In this document: positions 20,044 through 57,739 of the stretch, one piece after another
How the letters are laid out: each line of letters begins with the position of its first letter
Numbering within the stretch: position 1 is the stretch's first letter
IMG/VR virus record: IMGVR_UViG_3300027733_000042
Location: 26,787 to 90,786 of that record
Origin: a virus
Strand: one strand, 5' to 3'
Length of the DNA stretch: 64,000 nt
Program-made: the position numbers and the translations under genes
Notes under the pieces: generated by a model
What the model was told of the DNA's origin: nothing
The model's input: the letters and a program-made list of their open reading frames with translations, nothing else
The model's database searches: none

Positions 20044-20865
20044 TTGAAAAAGGATTTTATATTAGACCCGCTCTGGATTACCCAAGGCACCTATTTAGAC
20101 TCGGAATACTTTAACTATGTTCTCTTGGGTGCCAGTGTGAAGTATAAAGAGGAGATCGCAGCTGATAATATTGACCGATTTTATGAGGTCATGTTTCATA
20201 TACTTAATTTGAACAATTTAGCCGTGACCGGTAACATATTTACTGCAAAATACAAAGAAATTTGGAAAGAAGCTAGAATTAAACAGATTCAGGATGAATT
20301 GAAGAAAGTATATGACTTGCCTGAAGAAACTGCAAAGATTTTTAAGAATGCAAATTACGTGTTCTTGAATATTGCTATTGAGTACATGAAGATTCATCTT
20401 GATATCTTGGACAAGATTAAATTATTTCATATGAATAGAGATATTCATTGTGAAAAAGAAATATTTATTGTAACAAATAAACTTGGAACAAATATTTATC
20501 GAATTTGGAAGCTGTCAGATGACCCAAAAAGAAACTTTGGCTACTCTTTCTCAAAGGTAAAAACGATCACTATTCCAGACCTGGCAAGTAATTCATTTGG
20601 AACAGCCGCTGATGCAATAAATGATCCAAAGCTAATTGGATTAACTAGTAGTAAAAATGTATGTTTTGCCGTTATTCAAGAGAAAGAAGATGAATCCATG
20701 GTTGCAAAAACTGTGAAGGACACCCTGCTTCTAAATAAAGGCATTGCTAAGAATCGCGGGTTTGAACCGCTCCTAATTGCCGAGTTATATCGTTATATTT
20801 GGATAGAAAAAATGTTACCATTTACGCTAAGTCAATGGAGATCAGAAAATGTTAAAGAACTTTAA
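20044..20865 (+). CDS. Unknown late protein preceding a head-targeted zincin
   Basis: 273 residues from a TTG start at 20044, preceded by AAGAAG. No ATG fits better without losing the N-terminal block LDPLWITQGTYLDSEYFNYV. It is mixed helical, soluble, without recognised motifs. Its last 17 bases overlap the start of the zincin gene at 20849, which implies translational coupling and perhaps a joint role such as inhibitor, chaperone or co-packaged partner. That role is inference. Confidence 0.7.
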   Translation: MKKDFILDPLWITQGTYLDSEYFNYVLLGASVKYKEEIAADNIDRFYEVMFHILNLNNLAVTGNIFTAKYKEIWKEARIKQIQDELKKVYDLPEETAKIFKNANYVFLNIAIEYMKIHLDILDKIKLFHMNRDIHCEKEIFIVTNKLGTNIYRIWKLSDDPKRNFGYSFSKVKTITIPDLASNSFGTAADAINDPKLIGLTSSKNVCFAVIQEKEDESMVAKTVKDTLLLNKGIAKNRGFEPLLIAELYRYIWIEKMLPFTLSQWRSENVKEL

Positions 20866-21820
20866 TCAATTTATTACTGAAGCTCGAGGATTCTCGACAA
20901 CCGTTGAGGAATATGCACAAGTGTGTAAGACTCTAATCAACGCAACGCTCGACAAATATATCGCTGCGAATAGGACTGAGTTTACTAATTTTAGTAAGTC
21001 GATTATACTTAAAGATGCCTATCTAGAAGTATCTCAGGAGGCCGCTACTAAATTTCCATTAGACCAAATTAAGATACTGTTTGAGATTTCGGCAGTTGAC
21101 GAGGAGGAATTTATTCCCTATGCTGCGCACTATCAACGCAATTACAATAAAGTAAAATTAATTGAAGGTAAGGGTGTCAAAGTAAAAATTGATATGTTGT
21201 GTAAATTTGTTGTGCCGAAGACCGGTGGTCAAATTGATCGAGCAGTAATCAATAAGTATTTGGACGATATTTTAAATCATGAATTGACTCATGCATACAA
21301 TGATTACAAAGATCCAAATTTCTTTAAAGACTATCGTCTTGGTATGACGACTCAGTATGCTGCAGAAACATATCCATACTTGATGAAGTCTCGAGTGCTT
21401 AAGCTATTTTTTGATTTGCTCTATGTCTTAACACCGACTGAGATAAAGGCAATTGCTGGTGAGCGTAGCGAATTTAAAAGTCAAGAAGAATTACGTGAAT
21501 ATAGTGGATATCGGTGGTCACAACTCGCAAGAGATTTTGACCCAGATGAATATTATGAAATTATCCTTTCCCAAATCGAAGATCGCCGATTCGTTCAATA
21601 TATTGATACGAAATTTGGTGAATTCTTTGTAAATGTATATGTTGACTCTGTACACCAAGACAGTGCAACAGTTGACCCTAAAATTCTTAGACTTAAGAAA
21701 TCTGCAGGTTTAATGGATGTGTTACGCTTCTTTGAACAAAGAATACATAAGGGCGGCCAAGAACTTTTTAGGAAATTGGCCGCGAAAGTTACTGATCAAG
21801 GATCCGGTAAACTTATCTAG
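20849..21820 (+). CDS. HExxH metalloprotease with capsid-targeting N-terminus
   Basis: 323 residues. The start MLKNFNQFITE|A matches the T4 capsid-targeting sequence (MKTYQEFIAE|A of internal proteins): prohead-protease cleavage is expected after Glu11, following the (I/L)xE rule. A zinc-protease core NHELTHAYND places H144, E145 and H148, and LTPTEIKAIAGE near 194-205 could supply the third ligand (E198). The remainder is helical and ends in a basic, Gly-containing tail. Likely a zincin packed inside the head and delivered into the host with the DNA. It has the same architecture as the protein at 55532-56281. It ends with TAG, rare in this genome. Confidence 0.75.
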   Translation: MLKNFNQFITEARGFSTTVEEYAQVCKTLINATLDKYIAANRTEFTNFSKSIILKDAYLEVSQEAATKFPLDQIKILFEISAVDEEEFIPYAAHYQRNYNKVKLIEGKGVKVKIDMLCKFVVPKTGGQIDRAVINKYLDDILNHELTHAYNDYKDPNFFKDYRLGMTTQYAAETYPYLMKSRVLKLFFDLLYVLTPTEIKAIAGERSEFKSQEELREYSGYRWSQLARDFDPDEYYEIILSQIEDRRFVQYIDTKFGEFFVNVYVDSVHQDSATVDPKILRLKKSAGLMDVLRFFEQRIHKGGQELFRKLAAKVTDQGSGKLI

Positions 21821-24897: not shown

Positions 24898-27800
24898 TTA
24901 GATGAATTTAATTTTTATCTTCGGACTGATATCTTGTCCAGCTGCCGTTGATTTTGGTATGCTGAAGCTTAATATTAATCTGTCTGTTTTATTTATTTGC
25001 ACATTTTTGAATTCTGCGTAACCTAAAGCTTTGCGCTGAATATCATCTAAGAATACAAACGAGATCGGATTTGAATTTTGTACTGTCTTTGTTGAAAAAA
25101 GGCTAGCATTTCTTTTACTAAAGAATTCAATAGTGTCTGTATTGTATAGTTTGAGAATATTTAATTTTATGTAATCCTTAACATATTCTTGAATTGTGAC
25201 GTAGTTTCCAATAAACTCATTTGAATTTACTAGATAATCATTGAATTTTTGTTCGATTCCATCAGCAATAAGGTAATTAGTGATTGCATTGTTTAAATTA
25301 ATAAATCCATCAAGACTAGAGGTTCCCTCTTTTGCAACAATTTCAATTTGAGTAAGGTCAACATCTGATAATTTTTGGCTATCTGTTAGCATTACTATAT
25401 TAAACTGGGTAAGGTATAGTGTTTCAGGAACAGTTAATATTTTACCTAAGAAATTTTCATCTTCTTCTACTCGAACTGCACCAGATGCTGCAGAATATTC
25501 AGTTTTACTAGAATATCTGTGGTGAAAGCCCCAATCCCAATTACTATTTAGTAGGAAATGCGGAGCTTGACCGATTGCGACTTCACCAATTTTTGGATAA
25601 ATTGGAAGATGTGCAGGATCAGATTCAAGATCGAGTATCTTGGTGTTAGCTACCTTAATATGATTAAAATTAGCCAGAGTCAATAAGTTATCGATTTGTG
25701 TATTCAATCGAGTATTACTTAATGGTAAATCGTTTATCTTATTTTTAAAAAATTTGAAATTTGATTTGCAATATAATACATCGTGTGTAATAGGTTCATA
25801 TCCACCAGGATAACGATTTAGCTCAACAATATTGTTTAATTTAGCCTGTTCATATTGATATCCAATTTCATTATTAAATGAGAATTGAGTTGGAACATCA
25901 ATATCTGAGTTAATAATAATTTGACTTGTATTTTCAACATTTGCAACATCTGGAATCTCTAAATAGAATTTAGGGTCAGGTGATAACTGACTCACTCCAT
26001 TTATATCTAGAGAGTATGATTCAAATTCAATAATTGGATCAAGAGTATTTAGGTATTGTTTAAATTTAGAAAAAGACAGTTTTTGTAATAACTTTTCAAA
26101 ATAGTTCTTACCTCCGCCAATCACAAAGAATGTGAAGTAATTTCGGACAACTACTGTGAATCCAGAAGGCAGCGGTAGATTTTGGAAAATTGAAGTAAAT
26201 GGCGGAAGACTAATTGGAGTTACTAAACTTAAATCTGCACCACCTAGAATATCATCAAGACTAAAATTAAGACGATCATCTATTGCACTATCAATTGGAT
26301 TTGAGTTTTGTGGAGCAAATGCTGAATTCGTTTGGTCAATAATATAAAATATTCCAGATGCAGAGTTGCGCATTGCAACTAGACCTAGGTTACTAATTGG
26401 TGTAAATTCATCGGCTAGTGATGCTGGATAATTTGAAATACTTGGTATTTGGGTTGATTTAATTGTTCCTGAGACTGGCGGACCTGCGACAAAATTAACA
26501 CCATTTGTGCCAGCAACTGAAATTGCAAGCTGTGATGATAATTTTATATTTGAGAAGTTATCAAGTCTAGAGTTATATTTTTTATTCTTTAGAGAATAAA
26601 GTAGAGTATGATTTAGGTTTGACACATCAACTCCATCTACTTGTTCAAATTGAATTCGATAATCTCCATATATTGTCTCAAATGGAAGATCTCCACCAAT
26701 TAGTGGTCCAGCATAAAATGTTTCATTAGGTGGAACAACTGATGGTTTTGCACTTGAGAGGCCAACTGGTGAACCCATAATTATGAATTGCTTCCAAAAT
26801 GAATTAATTTGATCAATTGAACCAATTGCAAGTTCAATAACTAGTGTTATAAATTTATAGTCGGTGTGCTCAATAAATCTAAATCGGATTGGCGGCTGAT
26901 CGCGATTGAAGAAATCTTCCTTCACCGGTTTTAAGACGCAGCTAAATTTATAGCCATCGAATCTAGAAGTAGAGTCAGTTGCCACAGGTTTACCGTCTGC
27001 TCCAAATACAGTTGAATTATGAACATCATTAAATATTAACTTAAATCCTTTGAAAAAAGCCTCATATTGTCCTGCAATATTCTTAAATACTTCTGAATAT
27101 CTGAATTGAGTTGGTGCAACGTCTAAGTCCTCTCCATTTATGTCAGTTCCAAATTTTGGAGTATACGTAAAATATTCAATAAAATAATTTGGGTCACTTA
27201 GTAATTTTGTAATATCGAGTGGCTTGTCAAAATAGTAATTATTTTGCTTAGCTGTCGCTAACGTATCTAGATAATTGAATCGACTCTCAATATAGAACCA
27301 CTCATGGGTAAAATTATTTGGGTTTTGTGAACGATCAGTATGATCTGGTGAAAAATTATTTCTACCAAATACAATTTCTGTATTTAATCGATATGGATTA
27401 TCTCTAGAATCGAGTCCATTTTTTATTCCCCATTTTGTGATATATGGAATAATTTTTGAACGCAATGCAAAATCAATACTTTCATTTTCTTTATAGAAGT
27501 CATATTCTGTTTGGGTTAACCCATTTACATATTTTGTCTTTATTGCATATTCGTCAGATGAGTCAGCTGCAATAACTTTAGTTGGATCTTTAAGAATTGA
27601 GAAACCGGAAAAATTACGTAATTCCAAATTCTCATCTTTGATTGGACACATAAGTACATCACCAGGTGTAAATTTTGTTGTTTGTGATATGATTGGGGAG
27701 CCGATATAATTTGAATAATAACATGGCTGAGTCACTGTAAATTCTATGATAGGATTAATAGTGGTTCCAGGCAAAGCGACTTGATAGATATTCCAAGAAG

Positions 27801-30504
27801 ATAAAGGAGTCAATATATTCCAGACCACACTAAGTACGATTAGTGATAGATTGCCAGTTAATGAGTCATACCCTACCGGTGTGTCAACTTGTGCAATAAA
27901 ATAATTGTCAGCATCGTATTCTATTTTAACCTGCTGTAAATGATTTTGAGAACCATCGTCAAATCCATATGTTACAAGTGTTCCAACATTAAGAGTAATA
28001 GAACCACTTAAACTAGATAATAGTATACTCGTTGTTGAGGTAGCTTGAGTTGCAGGATCTTCAATTTTTGCAGTTCCATTATTAATTACAGAGTATCGAG
28101 TATATTTTATGTCTGCCAGATCTCTCTTTGGTGTTAATAAAGCAAGTCCTTCAGGTATGTAATAATATTGATAAAAATCTATTTCTGGAAAATTTAAGTA
28201 ATCGCTGCTATAAAAATCAAAGCTAATATCTTTGATTGGAAATAGTGAAAGTAATCCAAATGCAGGTCTAAATTTCTTGCGCATGATAAAATCAGTGTAT
28301 GCAATTGCTGGAGACTCTGCGTCTTCTAAAACAACTGCACATTTATTGAAATATGCAGAAATTGCGGACTTTATTGTAGACTCAGTAACTGAATTTTCTT
28401 CAGTCACTAGATCAATATAACTGGAAGTTTTTTTAATCTTTGACCAGCCGGAAGTTGTTTTAATTAGGATATTATTAATTTCCTGATTAATCTTAGCCAT
28501 GTGTTCACGGTCGACAATTAGACGATTACCAGTAACTATAGATCCGCCTTTAAATTGGAACATTGTCCCAACGAGTGACGTCCCGCCAGTTTCATCTAGA
28601 TCAATAACTGTGTACTGTGCAGTAGGTGATGTAAAAGATAATTGGTGAATTGCATCAAACTCTCCAGCAACATTACACTTGATAAAAACGTATGAATCAA
28701 ACGCATATGCAGTGAATGTACGATTTCGTGTGCTATTAATTACATCAGCAAGCGCTTTTGCAATTTCATGTTTTAGACCAATCGCGTTAAAATAGAATAC
28801 ATCATGTCCAACAACATTATCATAATCAATATATGAATAAAAATCTCCAGGATTAGGCGTTAGTGTATATCCAATTGCTGCTGTATAATAATCATATTTT
28901 CCATTAAGGTCAACATTTGTTCCATTTGGATGGTATAATCGAATTTCATCGAGGTGACCAAGATTTGAGTTAATTGTAATAACTGAATGCGAGAACCCAG
29001 CAGATTGACTACTAAACCCAGTGTCTTGTAGAAATAGGTCATGAGATGGGCCAAATAACCTAGCTAAATCAAATTTTGCATCACTTAACGTCAATATACC
29101 AGTTCCAATATCTTTTGCGACAAATCCAAAAACTAGCGGAGTCGCTGTTGTGTTTAGATATGTGAATTGGATATCTGATATCCTAGTGACAAAGTAGCTT
29201 CCGGTTAACTCAGTTAATGTATCTGTAATTTGAACAAGGTCATCTGTATTAAAGCCATGTGGAATATTTGATATTGCAGTTACTGTTGTTCCATCGCAAG
29301 TTAATTCAATAAATACTTTTTCTGAATAATTAACAGTATATGGCTGTTCTAGCTTAGGTAAATGTAATTTACCATAGCAATCAGTCACATAATTAAAATA
29401 CAGAGACTCTGAATCTGAAAAAATATCTTCAAACTCAGCCATATTAAAATCAATATTTGTATATGGAACAACTACACCAGTTGAATTTGATTGAACTAGA
29501 GTAGTATCATCTGATTCTAAATACAGTTTTTTAGTATGCGGAGTATTTGGCCAAGTTCTACGCTCTGCGTAAAGTCTTTCCAGGTCGATATCTAATTTTG
29601 ATAATTCTAGCGTATCCACATATAATCCTAAATAACGATTAAATTCATAATTCTCAGAAGTATCATCGGTAAATATGAAATCAAGATTTAGAATATTTGG
29701 GAAAATGACGCCGTTTCGCTCAAATCCACCAGTAATATTTCCTTCAAAGAATTTTAGAGGAGTTGACTGTTTGTATTGATCGTATAATAATTCGCCTTTA
29801 CTTCCAAGAATACCGGAATCAACTATGATTCCATTCCAAGTAGTAAAATCGTCTTCGTTGAATGATACACTTAGTGGGCTTACTGGAAAATTATTACTAT
29901 TAATATATGAACGAATGTATTTACCTGGTTTTGAGGTTTCACTTAGATCAAAGGTTTTAATAATTGTCGCATTCTTAAACAGGTCAATAATAAACTCTGA
30001 TTTTGATTGACCTGTTTCAAAATTTTGTTTTGAAAGATCAATCTTTGAATTTAAAGGATCCTTAATTTTTAAGATTACAAAATAATTAGGTATCTCCTTT
30101 TTAAGATATAGGGGAGCAAAATATGAAAGTCGCTCGTCATACTTATTAGATGGAAAATATTTGATTCCACTAAAATAATTAGAAAAATCGTACTGATCTT
30201 TAAAATCCTTTGATGTTTTAGTAGTGTCGACCTTTTCTGTTAAACCGAAAATAATCTCGTTTGGAGTTTCACCATTTTTAAAGAATTTATGCATATTTCC
30301 AGCTAGAGACTGTGTAGTATCTATTGGAAACCGTGAATAGTCATCTTTTGCAAGTTCAAGATTCGCCTTAATTGAATCTAACCACATATCGCCGGCTTCA
30401 TTAATTGTTATCTTAACATTGCCCGTTAATTTTGGATTAGTTCTAACCAGTTGAAAACTCGAATCTGCACTAAGCGGTTTAGTGTATAATAAGTCTTTTG
30501 CCAT
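24898..30504 (-). CDS. Giant tail or baseplate structural protein
   Basis: 1868 residues, the longest gene here. It is beta-rich, aromatic- and Asp/Asn-rich, with no membrane segment and no clear enzyme motif. The N-terminus (MAKDLLYTKPLSADSSFQLVRTNP) and its place between other fibre-size genes suggest a tail-fibre or baseplate periphery protein. Two bases separate its end from the collar-fibre gene and four bases separate its start from the gene upstream, so the five genes from 37196 to 21827 form one transcript. No known family is recognised. Confidence 0.65.
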   Translation of the reverse strand: MAKDLLYTKPLSADSSFQLVRTNPKLTGNVKITINEAGDMWLDSIKANLELAKDDYSRFPIDTTQSLAGNMHKFFKNGETPNEIIFGLTEKVDTTKTSKDFKDQYDFSNYFSGIKYFPSNKYDERLSYFAPLYLKKEIPNYFVILKIKDPLNSKIDLSKQNFETGQSKSEFIIDLFKNATIIKTFDLSETSKPGKYIRSYINSNNFPVSPLSVSFNEDDFTTWNGIIVDSGILGSKGELLYDQYKQSTPLKFFEGNITGGFERNGVIFPNILNLDFIFTDDTSENYEFNRYLGLYVDTLELSKLDIDLERLYAERRTWPNTPHTKKLYLESDDTTLVQSNSTGVVVPYTNIDFNMAEFEDIFSDSESLYFNYVTDCYGKLHLPKLEQPYTVNYSEKVFIELTCDGTTVTAISNIPHGFNTDDLVQITDTLTELTGSYFVTRISDIQFTYLNTTATPLVFGFVAKDIGTGILTLSDAKFDLARLFGPSHDLFLQDTGFSSQSAGFSHSVITINSNLGHLDEIRLYHPNGTNVDLNGKYDYYTAAIGYTLTPNPGDFYSYIDYDNVVGHDVFYFNAIGLKHEIAKALADVINSTRNRTFTAYAFDSYVFIKCNVAGEFDAIHQLSFTSPTAQYTVIDLDETGGTSLVGTMFQFKGGSIVTGNRLIVDREHMAKINQEINNILIKTTSGWSKIKKTSSYIDLVTEENSVTESTIKSAISAYFNKCAVVLEDAESPAIAYTDFIMRKKFRPAFGLLSLFPIKDISFDFYSSDYLNFPEIDFYQYYYIPEGLALLTPKRDLADIKYTRYSVINNGTAKIEDPATQATSTTSILLSSLSGSITLNVGTLVTYGFDDGSQNHLQQVKIEYDADNYFIAQVDTPVGYDSLTGNLSLIVLSVVWNILTPLSSWNIYQVALPGTTINPIIEFTVTQPCYYSNYIGSPIISQTTKFTPGDVLMCPIKDENLELRNFSGFSILKDPTKVIAADSSDEYAIKTKYVNGLTQTEYDFYKENESIDFALRSKIIPYITKWGIKNGLDSRDNPYRLNTEIVFGRNNFSPDHTDRSQNPNNFTHEWFYIESRFNYLDTLATAKQNNYYFDKPLDITKLLSDPNYFIEYFTYTPKFGTDINGEDLDVAPTQFRYSEVFKNIAGQYEAFFKGFKLIFNDVHNSTVFGADGKPVATDSTSRFDGYKFSCVLKPVKEDFFNRDQPPIRFRFIEHTDYKFITLVIELAIGSIDQINSFWKQFIIMGSPVGLSSAKPSVVPPNETFYAGPLIGGDLPFETIYGDYRIQFEQVDGVDVSNLNHTLLYSLKNKKYNSRLDNFSNIKLSSQLAISVAGTNGVNFVAGPPVSGTIKSTQIPSISNYPASLADEFTPISNLGLVAMRNSASGIFYIIDQTNSAFAPQNSNPIDSAIDDRLNFSLDDILGGADLSLVTPISLPPFTSIFQNLPLPSGFTVVVRNYFTFFVIGGGKNYFEKLLQKLSFSKFKQYLNTLDPIIEFESYSLDINGVSQLSPDPKFYLEIPDVANVENTSQIIINSDIDVPTQFSFNNEIGYQYEQAKLNNIVELNRYPGGYEPITHDVLYCKSNFKFFKNKINDLPLSNTRLNTQIDNLLTLANFNHIKVANTKILDLESDPAHLPIYPKIGEVAIGQAPHFLLNSNWDWGFHHRYSSKTEYSAASGAVRVEEDENFLGKILTVPETLYLTQFNIVMLTDSQKLSDVDLTQIEIVAKEGTSSLDGFINLNNAITNYLIADGIEQKFNDYLVNSNEFIGNYVTIQEYVKDYIKLNILKLYNTDTIEFFSKRNASLFSTKTVQNSNPISFVFLDDIQRKALGYAEFKNVQINKTDRLILSFSIPKSTAAGQDISPKIKIKFI

Positions 30505-46731: not shown

Positions 46732-49139
<2,408 letters not shown>

Positions 49140-54974: not shown

Positions 54975-55005
54975 AAAGCAGCAATATTCAAATTGCTGCT
55001 TTTTT
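54975..55005 (+). terminator. Rho-independent terminator after S1-like gene
   Basis: AAAGCAGCAAT (54975-54985) pairs with ATTGCTGCTTT (54992-55002) around ATTCAA, followed by T. Confidence 0.92.
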
Positions 55006-55043: not shown

Positions 55044-55532
55044 ATGAAAAAACACATCAAAGGCTTTTATAGCTTTCTTTTTGAACAAGATATGGCAGCT
55101 ATGCCTGGAATGCCAACTCCTGCAGCGCCAAAGAAAGCTCAGCCAGTTCACTTTATCTTTATCGACGATGCAGATGGTGATAATATTCGTAAGCGAAAAT
55201 ACCCAGATGGTAGCATGTCAGTCGATTTTCCATCATATTCTGTTACTCCTGAAGAAATTAAAGAGTGGGCAGATAAAAATATACAGTCTACTGGTAAAAA
55301 TAAGATTTCGGACACAGTTATTGAATTGCGCCGTAAAAATATAGTAAATATTGTAACAGGAGACAAAGTAAATATTGGAGATGATGATTTTCCATTTATT
55401 GAAAAGTTAAAAAATGCAGTTTCATCAGATATCTTTGGAACACGCGAACCTGATATACAAATTATATTCACAAAGGACGGCACTCCAACCACCGAAGACA
55501 TGAAAGTTACATTTATAAAACACAAGAAATAA
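55044..55532 (+). CDS. Putative internal head protein with capsid-targeting N-terminus
   Basis: 162 residues. The start MKKHIKGFYSFLFE|Q resembles the T4 capsid-targeting sequence, with a possible (L)xE cleavage after Glu14; the residue after the cut (Gln) is less usual than Ala, Gly or Ser. A Met/Pro/Ala-rich linker (MAAMPGMPTPAAPKKAQP) follows, then a globular alpha/beta domain (VHFIFIDDADGDNIRKRKYPDG and two further strands). Its stop overlaps the start of a zincin gene (TAATG), so the two are probably co-packaged. The function of the globular part is unknown. Confidence 0.6.
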   Translation: MKKHIKGFYSFLFEQDMAAMPGMPTPAAPKKAQPVHFIFIDDADGDNIRKRKYPDGSMSVDFPSYSVTPEEIKEWADKNIQSTGKNKISDTVIELRRKNIVNIVTGDKVNIGDDDFPFIEKLKNAVSSDIFGTREPDIQIIFTKDGTPTTEDMKVTFIKHKK

Positions 55533-56281
55533 TGCTCAAATCATTCGCATCTTTTATAAATGAGTCAGATGACTTCCAACAAGATTTTATTAAAGATCTT
55601 GCTCTAAAGTTAATTGCGAAAATACGTACTGCTCATGGCCAAGAGTCTGAGCAGTATGAAACATTTGCTGGTATGGAATTTAGAGAGCCATTCTCATTTG
55701 ATTTAAAACTCGAATTACGCAGAGATTCTGCATTAACTGTCAAATCTGATGAACACTTTAAGAATTTACCATGGGAGCAACTTAATTATGCTAAACATGG
55801 ATATTGCATTGACGCAAATACTAAAGTCAATAATGGTGATTTAATAATTCCTGAGATAATTGTGACTCTTGTTATGAATCCGAAGGCTGAACCTGGACTG
55901 TATACCATGTTACATGCTAGATTAATTGATATTCTTACCCATGAACTTAATCATGTTGATCAGATTGGACTACAGAAGGACCCATTTACTGAAAACCCAT
56001 CAGATGCTGAGACTCGTGGTGACGCAAAGAAGAGTTATAAGTATTTTTTACTTAAGGACGAAGTTGAATCAATGGTTGAAGGCATGTATGCACGATCGCA
56101 ATACCTTGACACCCCATTAGATTACGTATTTGCTGATTATTTGCAGCCATTTGTACAATCTAAGTATATGACAGCCGATGAATATCAAATCGTACTTGAA
56201 ACATGGGTAAAATATGCCCTAGAGCGTTATCCTGATGCATCTTTTTCTAATAAAGTTGAGAAAATAGTGAATTCGCTATAA
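55532..56281 (+). CDS. HExxH metalloprotease with capsid-targeting N-terminus
   Basis: 249 residues. MLKSFASFINE|S repeats the architecture of the protein at 20849: a capsid-targeting-like start with expected cleavage after Glu11. The zincin core THELNHVDQ gives H137, E138 and H141, and FLLKDEVESMVEG gives a candidate third ligand (E177), comparable with TPTEIKAIAGE in the other protein. The C-terminal 70 residues are helical. It is translated with the putative internal head protein just upstream. Expected to be packed in the capsid, processed, and ejected to cut a host protein, or to act on the prohead core. Confidence 0.75.
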   Translation: MLKSFASFINESDDFQQDFIKDLALKLIAKIRTAHGQESEQYETFAGMEFREPFSFDLKLELRRDSALTVKSDEHFKNLPWEQLNYAKHGYCIDANTKVNNGDLIIPEIIVTLVMNPKAEPGLYTMLHARLIDILTHELNHVDQIGLQKDPFTENPSDAETRGDAKKSYKYFLLKDEVESMVEGMYARSQYLDTPLDYVFADYLQPFVQSKYMTADEYQIVLETWVKYALERYPDASFSNKVEKIVNSL

Positions 56282-56325: not shown

Positions 56326-56595
56326 ATGAATCAGTTTGAAAAATTAAAGGAAGAAGTAGCGGCTGCACAATCTGCAATCTTTGATCCAATCAACACCATT
56401 CTTGCCTCCGCTGAAGAAGATGCTCAGAAATATTATGTAAAGGGTGTACGCAGCGCTGGAAACCGCTTGAAAAAGAAAATGCAAGACATTCGAAAATCAA
56501 TTAAACACCCTGCAGTTAAAGCACAAATGACAACTGTCCAAGTGTCTGCAAAAGCACTTCGTGAAAGCTTAATCGAGGAATCAAAAACAAAATAA
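56326..56595 (+). CDS. Histone H1-like (Hc1-type) DNA-binding protein
   Basis: 89 residues. EEDAQKYYVKGVRSAGNRLKKKMQDIRK resembles the conserved core DAEKFYxKGNKAAGTRxRKxLQxIK of the small Hc1/histone H1-like proteins widespread in Bacteroidetes. These basic helical proteins bind and compact DNA. Here it may coat phage DNA, remodel the host nucleoid, or accompany DNA in the head. The C-terminal third is more polar than in bacterial members. It is monocistronic, with its own promoter box and strong terminator. It also supports a Bacteroidetes host. Confidence 0.75.
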   Translation: MNQFEKLKEEVAAAQSAIFDPINTILASAEEDAQKYYVKGVRSAGNRLKKKMQDIRKSIKHPAVKAQMTTVQVSAKALRESLIEESKTK

Positions 56596-56613: not shown

Positions 56614-56641
56614 AAAAATGCCTCTTTGAGGCATTTTTTTT
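56614..56641 (+). terminator. Rho-independent terminator after histone-like gene
   Basis: AAAAATGCCTC (56614-56624) pairs with GAGGCATTTTT (56628-56638), continued by T. Confidence 0.92.
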
Positions 56642-56704: not shown

Positions 56705-57739
56705 ATGACAGATTTTTTCGATCTACCAGAGGATGCATTCTCAAAAGGGAAGAATGCACAAAAAACAAAAAAGACTGATCCGAACGTTTACGATCCGGAT
56801 CCAAATGCACACAACGGTTCCTACAAATCAGTATTTAGGTATGTTCCTTATATTTTCGACAAAACGAAAAGTAAGTATACCAAGTATTCTGCTAAGTTTT
56901 GGAATCCATTGACTAAAGAGTCATTAATAATTGATTGTCCATCAAATACTGGACAGCCATCTATTCTTTGGACAATTGAATCAGTTCTACGTTCTCTTAA
57001 AAAAGAAGAACCAGAAGTAGTTGAAGAAATTGGAAGAAATTTTTCAAGATGGTACACACATCACTCAGCGGTATATGTCAAAAAAGACCCACAGCGCGCT
57101 GACCTTGAAGGAACAATTAAAATCTTTAAATTCAGAAATCAAATCGATCAAGTGATCGAAGCGCAAATGCATCCTGAAGAATTAGAAGGACTTGAAGGAA
57201 TTAAGAAAATTAATCCTTACCATTTACTTGAAGGAAAAGACTTCTTATGTATTGTTGGTAAAAAGACCAAAGATTTCAGAGACTGGTCAAAATGTAAATT
57301 CATGGATGAAGTAACTCCATTTATCTTTAAAATTGGTGATAAACTAGTTCAAGTTAAGAACGAGGAAAAATCAATCAAATTGGTTAATGAGTTCTTACTG
57401 AAGAATACTCCAAAAATGGATGAGTATTACCACCAAGAATGGACTGAAGAAACTTTTGAAAAAGTAGCAGAAGCGATTATTGCAGCTATTCCACAAAGAC
57501 CTATTTTGGACATGATTCTTGAAAAGAGCAAAGACCAAAAGATGAATGCCTTAGTTCGTGGAAAAATGAGACCAAATAAGTCAAATAACCCAACTTCTGC
57601 AGTTAAAGAAGACTTAGACTTTGGAACTAGCGTATCTACTCCGACGCCTGCTGCTGAAAAATCGCAAAGTGCTTCATCTGCACCGGCTGCAACCACTGCA
57701 ACCGATGATGAATACGATGCTTTATTTAAAGACCTATAA
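56705..57739 (+). CDS. Single-stranded DNA-binding protein, T4 gp32-like
   Basis: 344 residues (T4 gp32: 301). gp32 coats ssDNA and organises replication, recombination and repair. The N-terminal basic segment (KNAQKTKKTD), an OB-fold core (KYTKYSAKFWNPLTKESLIID; FSRWYTHHSAVYVKKDPQ; GTIKIFKFRNQIDQVIEAQMHP) and an acidic tail after an Ala/Ser/Thr linker (ending DDEYDALFKDL) match the gp32 plan, the tail being the contact for partner proteins. The clear Cys/His zinc site of T4 gp32 is not seen. It starts an operon with an unknown gene, RNase H and GroES, an order reminiscent of T4 32-59-33-dsbA-rnh. Confidence 0.8.
   Translation: MTDFFDLPEDAFSKGKNAQKTKKTDPNVYDPDPNAHNGSYKSVFRYVPYIFDKTKSKYTKYSAKFWNPLTKESLIIDCPSNTGQPSILWTIESVLRSLKKEEPEVVEEIGRNFSRWYTHHSAVYVKKDPQRADLEGTIKIFKFRNQIDQVIEAQMHPEELEGLEGIKKINPYHLLEGKDFLCIVGKKTKDFRDWSKCKFMDEVTPFIFKIGDKLVQVKNEEKSIKLVNEFLLKNTPKMDEYYHQEWTEETFEKVAEAIIAAIPQRPILDMILEKSKDQKMNALVRGKMRPNKSNNPTSAVKEDLDFGTSVSTPTPAAEKSQSASSAPAATTATDDEYDALFKDL

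Follow-up and report, generated by a model that had tools for sequence, protein, structure and literature searches.

The closest described counterparts of the locus reported here are the T4 proteins IPI, IPII, IPIII and Alt, which have a short N-terminal leader with an aromatic pair at the targeting positions and an [IL]xE cut site, all features that are also found here, where relatives of the phage encode a protease of the gp21 family. Mutagenesis in T4 assigns targeting by IPIII mainly to residues 4 and 7, and processing to residues 8 and 10; an Asp at the cut position of a T4 leader permits targeting yet inhibits processing (PMC9026906). The T4 cargo comprises an anti-restriction protein, an ADP-ribosyltransferase and proteins of unsolved role (PMC9026906), whereas the candidate cargo described here is a predicted zincin and a tagged partner. 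Jumbo phages also encode zincin-like metallopeptidases (SprT-like, ArdC-like and the group 1 zincin), for which a function in host targeting or maturation has been proposed (PMC7824862). They belong to the broad class predicted for the protein studied here, which differs from the SprT and ArdC types in having no Pfam match above the cut-off and in its HExxH motif being followed by a Glu 36 residues on.

The window that we analyzed is a 64,000-nucleotide stretch of a 90.8-kb virus record (IMG/VR IMGVR_UViG_3300027733_000042), in which genes were called as longest open reading frames. The window covers tail, neck and replication functions of a giant phage related to T4, with genes for the terminase, baseplate, sheath, a late sigma factor, exonucleases, a gp32-like single-strand DNA-binding protein (SSB) and GroEL. 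No direct DNA similarity to named phages was detected. The best sheath matches were to megaphages, Prevotella Lak phages and a Flavobacterium phage, and based on these sequence matches the host is likely a member of the Bacteroidota. The structural region also contains an 1868-aa open reading frame (24898-30504), and the phage-encoded GroEL (548 aa, 47493-49139) precedes the partner gene described below by ~6 kb.

The zincin-type gene and its neighbors

The original prediction described a packaged metalloprotease gene at 55532-56281, with the N-terminus MLKSFASFINE/S (the slash marks the predicted cut), HELNH at residues 137-141 and KDEVESM as the source of a possible third zinc ligand. All of these elements were present, with KDEVESM at residues 175-181. 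The gene and its surroundings have the following features, all on the + strand:

54975..55002, +, terminator-like hairpin 5' of a three-gene cluster (consensus match only)
55044..55532, +, partner gene (162 aa), translationally coupled to the zincin gene; leader MKKHIKGFYSFLFE/QD, followed by a linker rich in Pro, Ala and Met; directly upstream in every homolog with upstream sequence
55044..55085, +, residues 1-14 of the partner, forming its leader
55532..56281, +, predicted zincin-type metalloprotease gene, 249 aa (51 distinct homologs, invariant HExxH and E177, model pLDDT 84.6, pTM 0.84)
55532..55564, +, predicted capsid-targeting leader MLKSFASFINE, cut after E11 (from conservation and pattern searches; residues 1-10 of low model confidence)
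55940..55954, +, HELNH, residues 137-141, with predicted zinc ligands H137 and H141 and catalytic E138 (invariant; in helix 124-145)
56060..56062, +, E177, predicted third zinc ligand (invariant; near the start of helix 175-192)
56326..56595, +, leaderless 89-aa basic protein resembling histone H1 (Hc1); third gene of the cluster, conserved
56614..56638, +, terminator-like hairpin 3' of the three-gene cluster (consensus match only)
56705..57739, +, gp32-like SSB; fixed downstream neighbor

Scanning of viral contigs identified 51 distinct homologs of the zincin, with identities down to ~34%, and no relatives were found in bacterial genomes. HExxH was present in 51/51 and the leader was retained in 49/51, with F5 in 51/51, [FYH]8 in 51/51, an aliphatic residue at position 9 in 50/51 and E11 in 50/51; degraded or weak leaders were seen in L028 (HLYEN) and L034 (HSNDN). 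The dN/dS of the zincin against its closest orthologue was 0.11, and by this sequence measure purifying selection acts on the gene.

The AlphaFold model of the 249-residue protein is confident overall and low in confidence over the first ten residues; it places HExxH within one helix and E177 near the start of another. Within KDEVESM the original prediction had left the choice of ligand open; the first Glu, E177, is invariant and is preferred for that reason. E179 was rejected as the third ligand, as a Pro takes its place in the group of homologs L140-L152. PDB searches with the zincin, by sequence and by fold, gave no usable match: the best fold match to the model was a non-peptidase (E 0.044), and M1 aminopeptidases reached only E 0.45. 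Nor did the zincin match any Pfam family above the cut-off, including SprT, WLM and ArdC; the best score to these three profiles was to WLM, for a single member of the family and below the cut-off (E 0.017). Since neither a PDB fold nor a Pfam family was matched, the metalloprotease call was based on the motif, its invariance and the layout of the helices. Together with the predicted ligand set, these features suggest that the product is probably a zinc-dependent protease of gluzincin-like type.

The expectation that relatives would keep both the leader and HExxH was borne out among the 51 homologs, only two of which were without a canonical leader, and did not extend to a remote homolog in the Flavobacterium phage immuto. 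In that phage, a domain homologous to the zincin (HEIEH and YFLLPKEVDA) forms the C-terminus of QQO92100.1, which is annotated as the NMN adenylyltransferase NadR. This 907-aa protein (L043:3724-6447) has nucleotidyltransferase-like regions and another HExxH, the last of its two HExxH domains being the zincin-homologous one, and is without an N-terminal leader. As the immuto domain keeps HExxH without a leader, enzyme and tag are separable. An internal MKTTSFSDFIES of the immuto protein was considered as an internal leader and dropped, as the required spacing was absent.

The original prediction treated two leader-bearing genes as the set and missed a third in the window, the partner gene directly upstream of the zincin, whose 3' end overlaps the zincin gene start. 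Counterparts of the partner lie upstream of the zincin homologs, usually with an overlap of 1 or 4 bases, and most of them have a recognizable leader, which is weaker in L140-L152, the most distant zincin group. Downstream of the zincin, the H1-like gene and then the SSB gene follow in nearly all homologs. Judged from gene order, with its coupled partner and its fixed place beside the SSB gene, the zincin gene is a core gene of these phages, and the conservation in place of the three-gene cluster fits a constant function better than that of a patchy arms-race effector. The partner may be an inhibitor, a chaperone or a second effector.

The second HExxH protein and the spread of the leader

As the original prediction reported, a second gene with a like layout is found at a distant locus, also on the + strand:

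20849..21820, +, 323-aa protein, the second with both a leader and HExxH
20849..20881, +, its leader, MLKNFNQFITE/A
21278..21292, +, HELTH, residues 144-148 (H144, E145 and H148 unchanged across 6 sequences)
21440..21442, +, E198 of YVLTPTEIKA, a candidate for the third ligand (invariant in 6 sequences, as are Y192, L194, I199 and A201)

These two are the only HExxH genes among the 85 called genes of the 90.8-kb record. A strict form of the leader pattern occurs in 4/85 genes, versus 0.04 expected from shuffling, and a simple estimate of the chance that both HExxH genes would bear it is ~(4/85)(3/84) = 0.002. Downstream of HExxH both proteins have Y-x-L-x3-E-[IV]-x-[AS], YVLTPTEIKA being the counterpart of YFLLKDEVES in the zincin. 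Beyond the HExxH helix the two share no significant sequence, in keeping with the claim that they are alike in little outside their motifs, and the profile alignment of the two families proposed as a check gave no useful score. The 323-aa protein has few relatives and a poor model (pLDDT 58). Nevertheless, in a structural search the models of both proteins matched the same three viral proteins (A0A6J5L9D6, A0A6J5L930 and A0A8D9CA42), and on that basis they probably share a fold as remote relatives, as far as the weak second model can indicate.

The leader is by no means confined to these genes. The strict pattern was found in 12/311 and 18/296 genes of relatives of 270 and 253 kb, respectively (0.04 to 0.14 expected across records). 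Related giant phages bear it on ~2-6% of their genes, and eight related records showed a strong excess of the pattern at N-termini. The leader was also present in 13/418 genes of a separate 635-kb megaphage, versus 0 after shuffling. When T4 was scanned from every Met in six frames, the pattern matched IPII, IPIII and one internal Met in uvsW, making IPII and IPIII, which bear the defined capsid-targeting sequence as their leader, the only T4 gene starts recovered. Y4, F7, I8 and E10 of T4 IPIII correspond to F5, F8, I9 and E11 of the zincin, and both T4-defined targeting positions are thereby conserved in every zincin homolog. At 11 residues and ending I-N-E/S, the zincin leader is within the ~10-19-residue T4 norm ending in [LI]xE. 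These comparisons support the leader being a T4-like capsid-targeting sequence, E11 being the last residue before a gp21-type cut site.

Leader-tagged proteins in the relatives include nudix hydrolases, nucleotidyltransferases, a CHAP protein, a VanY peptidase and a HAD-like hydrolase, and most are without a known domain. The CHAP, VanY and nudix proteins are not obvious head cargo, which counts against a cargo reading of the leader. As so many unrelated proteins carry it, the “two-part protease design” of the original prediction is too narrow. The T4-like leader, the S77 protease of the relatives and the joint conservation of leader and HExxH agree with that prediction; the leader as the mark of a two-protease system was not supported. 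A nudix hydrolase with a like leader (MVILNFNDYISE/G) is encoded upstream of the window (L044:11936-12445, - strand), and the relatives G002 and G013 also encode leader-bearing nudix proteins.

The S77 protease and its 14-residue array

A domain of the S77 (gp21) family scored above the Pfam cut-off in 11/14 related records, in an open reading frame of ~660 aa flanked by a DnaJ-like gene and a gene positioned like that of the major capsid protein. One relative, G002, encodes the S77 domain together with both HExxH proteins. The window's own 90.8-kb record is a fragment in which the S77 gene is absent, and we infer such a protease for this phage from its relatives. A search for S77 in the Flavobacterium phage MaF61 gave no match.

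The middle part of the S77 open reading frame consists of tandem 14-residue units (e.g., NINYSEYVAENVEK), and the leader core, [FY]xx[FYH][ILV]xE, recurs as the unit of this array. In each of five S77-bearing genomes, the S77 open reading frame was the sole gene with at least three leader-core matches. Ten relatives had 6-10 copies spaced at multiples of 14, and the LR745206 megaphage had 11. Across the five genomes, the core was observed 45 times in the S77 open reading frames versus 0.6 expected, 54 versus 2.6 in residues 2-25 of the other proteins, and 50 versus 35 in the rest of the proteome. Nine patterns altered in spacing or last residue lost this joint enrichment, their maxima being 11 versus 3.6 at N-termini and 5 versus 0.7 in the S77 open reading frames, for two different variants. 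The leader-core pattern was chosen post hoc from the data, and for that reason the results for T4 and the megaphage provide a more independent check.

The aromatic pair common to array and leader falls at the T4 targeting positions, and the aliphatic residue and Glu at the T4 processing positions. The [ILV]xE part of this likeness could stem from a shared protease alone. However, a shared protease would explain [ILV]xE only, and the presence of the aromatic pair in both leader and array makes it insufficient as the whole explanation. T4 gp21 and gp22 have no such repeat array, unlike the S77 proteins of the relatives. The prohead core scaffold-proteases of Tenacibaculum phages pT24 and PTm1 resemble the proteins described here in that an S77-like domain and a scaffold-like region are joined and the gene is close to those for portal and capsid, but have no array, with one leader-core match in pT24 and none in PTm1; these proteins and one from MA9V-2 were rejected as array carriers. 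In a limited search of open papers we found no earlier report of the likeness between leader and scaffold. The gp21-type protease fused to the scaffold-like array is encoded at L236:6728-8749 (- strand) in one contig, with equivalents in G002, G003, G004 and G015.

Proposed head loading and competing explanations

Because the array and the leader share the T4 targeting and processing positions, we infer that the leader joins the prohead core as an extra scaffold unit. During prohead assembly, the zincin leader would dock in the scaffold core by copying one 14-residue repeat, and the fused gp21-type protease would cut scaffold repeats and leaders alike after [ILV]xE. Cleavage would free a mature zincin with Ser12 at its N-terminus, which may be stored in the head together with its co-translated, tagged partner. 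The putative zinc-binding, active enzyme would then enter the host with the DNA and cleave protein targets early in infection. Sequence-level support for this reading comes from the conserved leader, the invariant HExxH and E177, the coupled partner, the fixed gene order and the S77 scaffold array of the relatives. We give a probability of roughly 0.6 to the gene encoding a zinc-dependent head-cargo protease of this kind, with a scaffold-mimic leader, a gp21-type cut, storage with the partner and entry with the DNA.

The zincin could instead be packaged and act inside the head, as a second maturation protease trimming structural or scaffold proteins rather than host targets. Its status as a core gene with a fixed position in all sampled phages, unlike patchy host-targeting effectors, would suit such a role, as would the conserved zincin of group 1 jumbo phages that was proposed for maturation (PMC7824862). 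We consider this unlikely, as the relatives already have an S77 protease, the zincin gene adjoins genes for the SSB and a DNA-binding protein rather than head genes, and other leader-bearing proteins resemble nucleotide or cell-wall enzymes and not enzymes acting on capsid parts.

The tagging of many unrelated proteins also raises the question of whether the leader is a general N-terminal signal, such as for recruitment to the phage GroEL or another compartment, in which case the proteases would be cytoplasmic. GroEL is encoded in the window, and according to the title of a reference in PMC10052503 the N-terminus of the T4 capsid protein directs proteins to GroEL. Yet in T4 this pattern is borne by proteins known to be packaged, the cut-site Glu is kept in 50/51 homologs and the scaffold array contains the pattern as well, which together make a general signal quite improbable. 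The missing Pfam and PDB family matches would be compatible with a zincin-like fold that is not a protease, having some other hydrolase role or a structural site. This is very doubtful given that the catalytic Glu of HExxH, for which a purely structural metal site would have no need, is present in all 51 homologs.

Returning to a head-delivered protease with a scaffold-mimic leader, a wider and more tentative proposal, to which we give somewhat less than even odds, is that head loading is a readable code in this lineage of giant phages. The leader would equal one scaffold repeat, tagged proteins would co-assemble with the core and be released by the same cut, and varied enzymes would be delivered, including the core zinc protease and its co-packaged partner. 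In open papers we found no explanation of how a prohead core recognizes a T4-type targeting sequence, and a tag that matches a scaffold repeat would be a direct and testable answer. If true, the head cargo of giant phages could be listed from sequence alone, and the gene at 55532-56281 would point to a core protease that is probably head-delivered. Lastly, small genes just past the presumed capsid gene on two contigs (L236:4558-4923 and L248:5245-5604, both on the - strand) encode a leader followed by KGKG-type repeats, and are perhaps basic core proteins.
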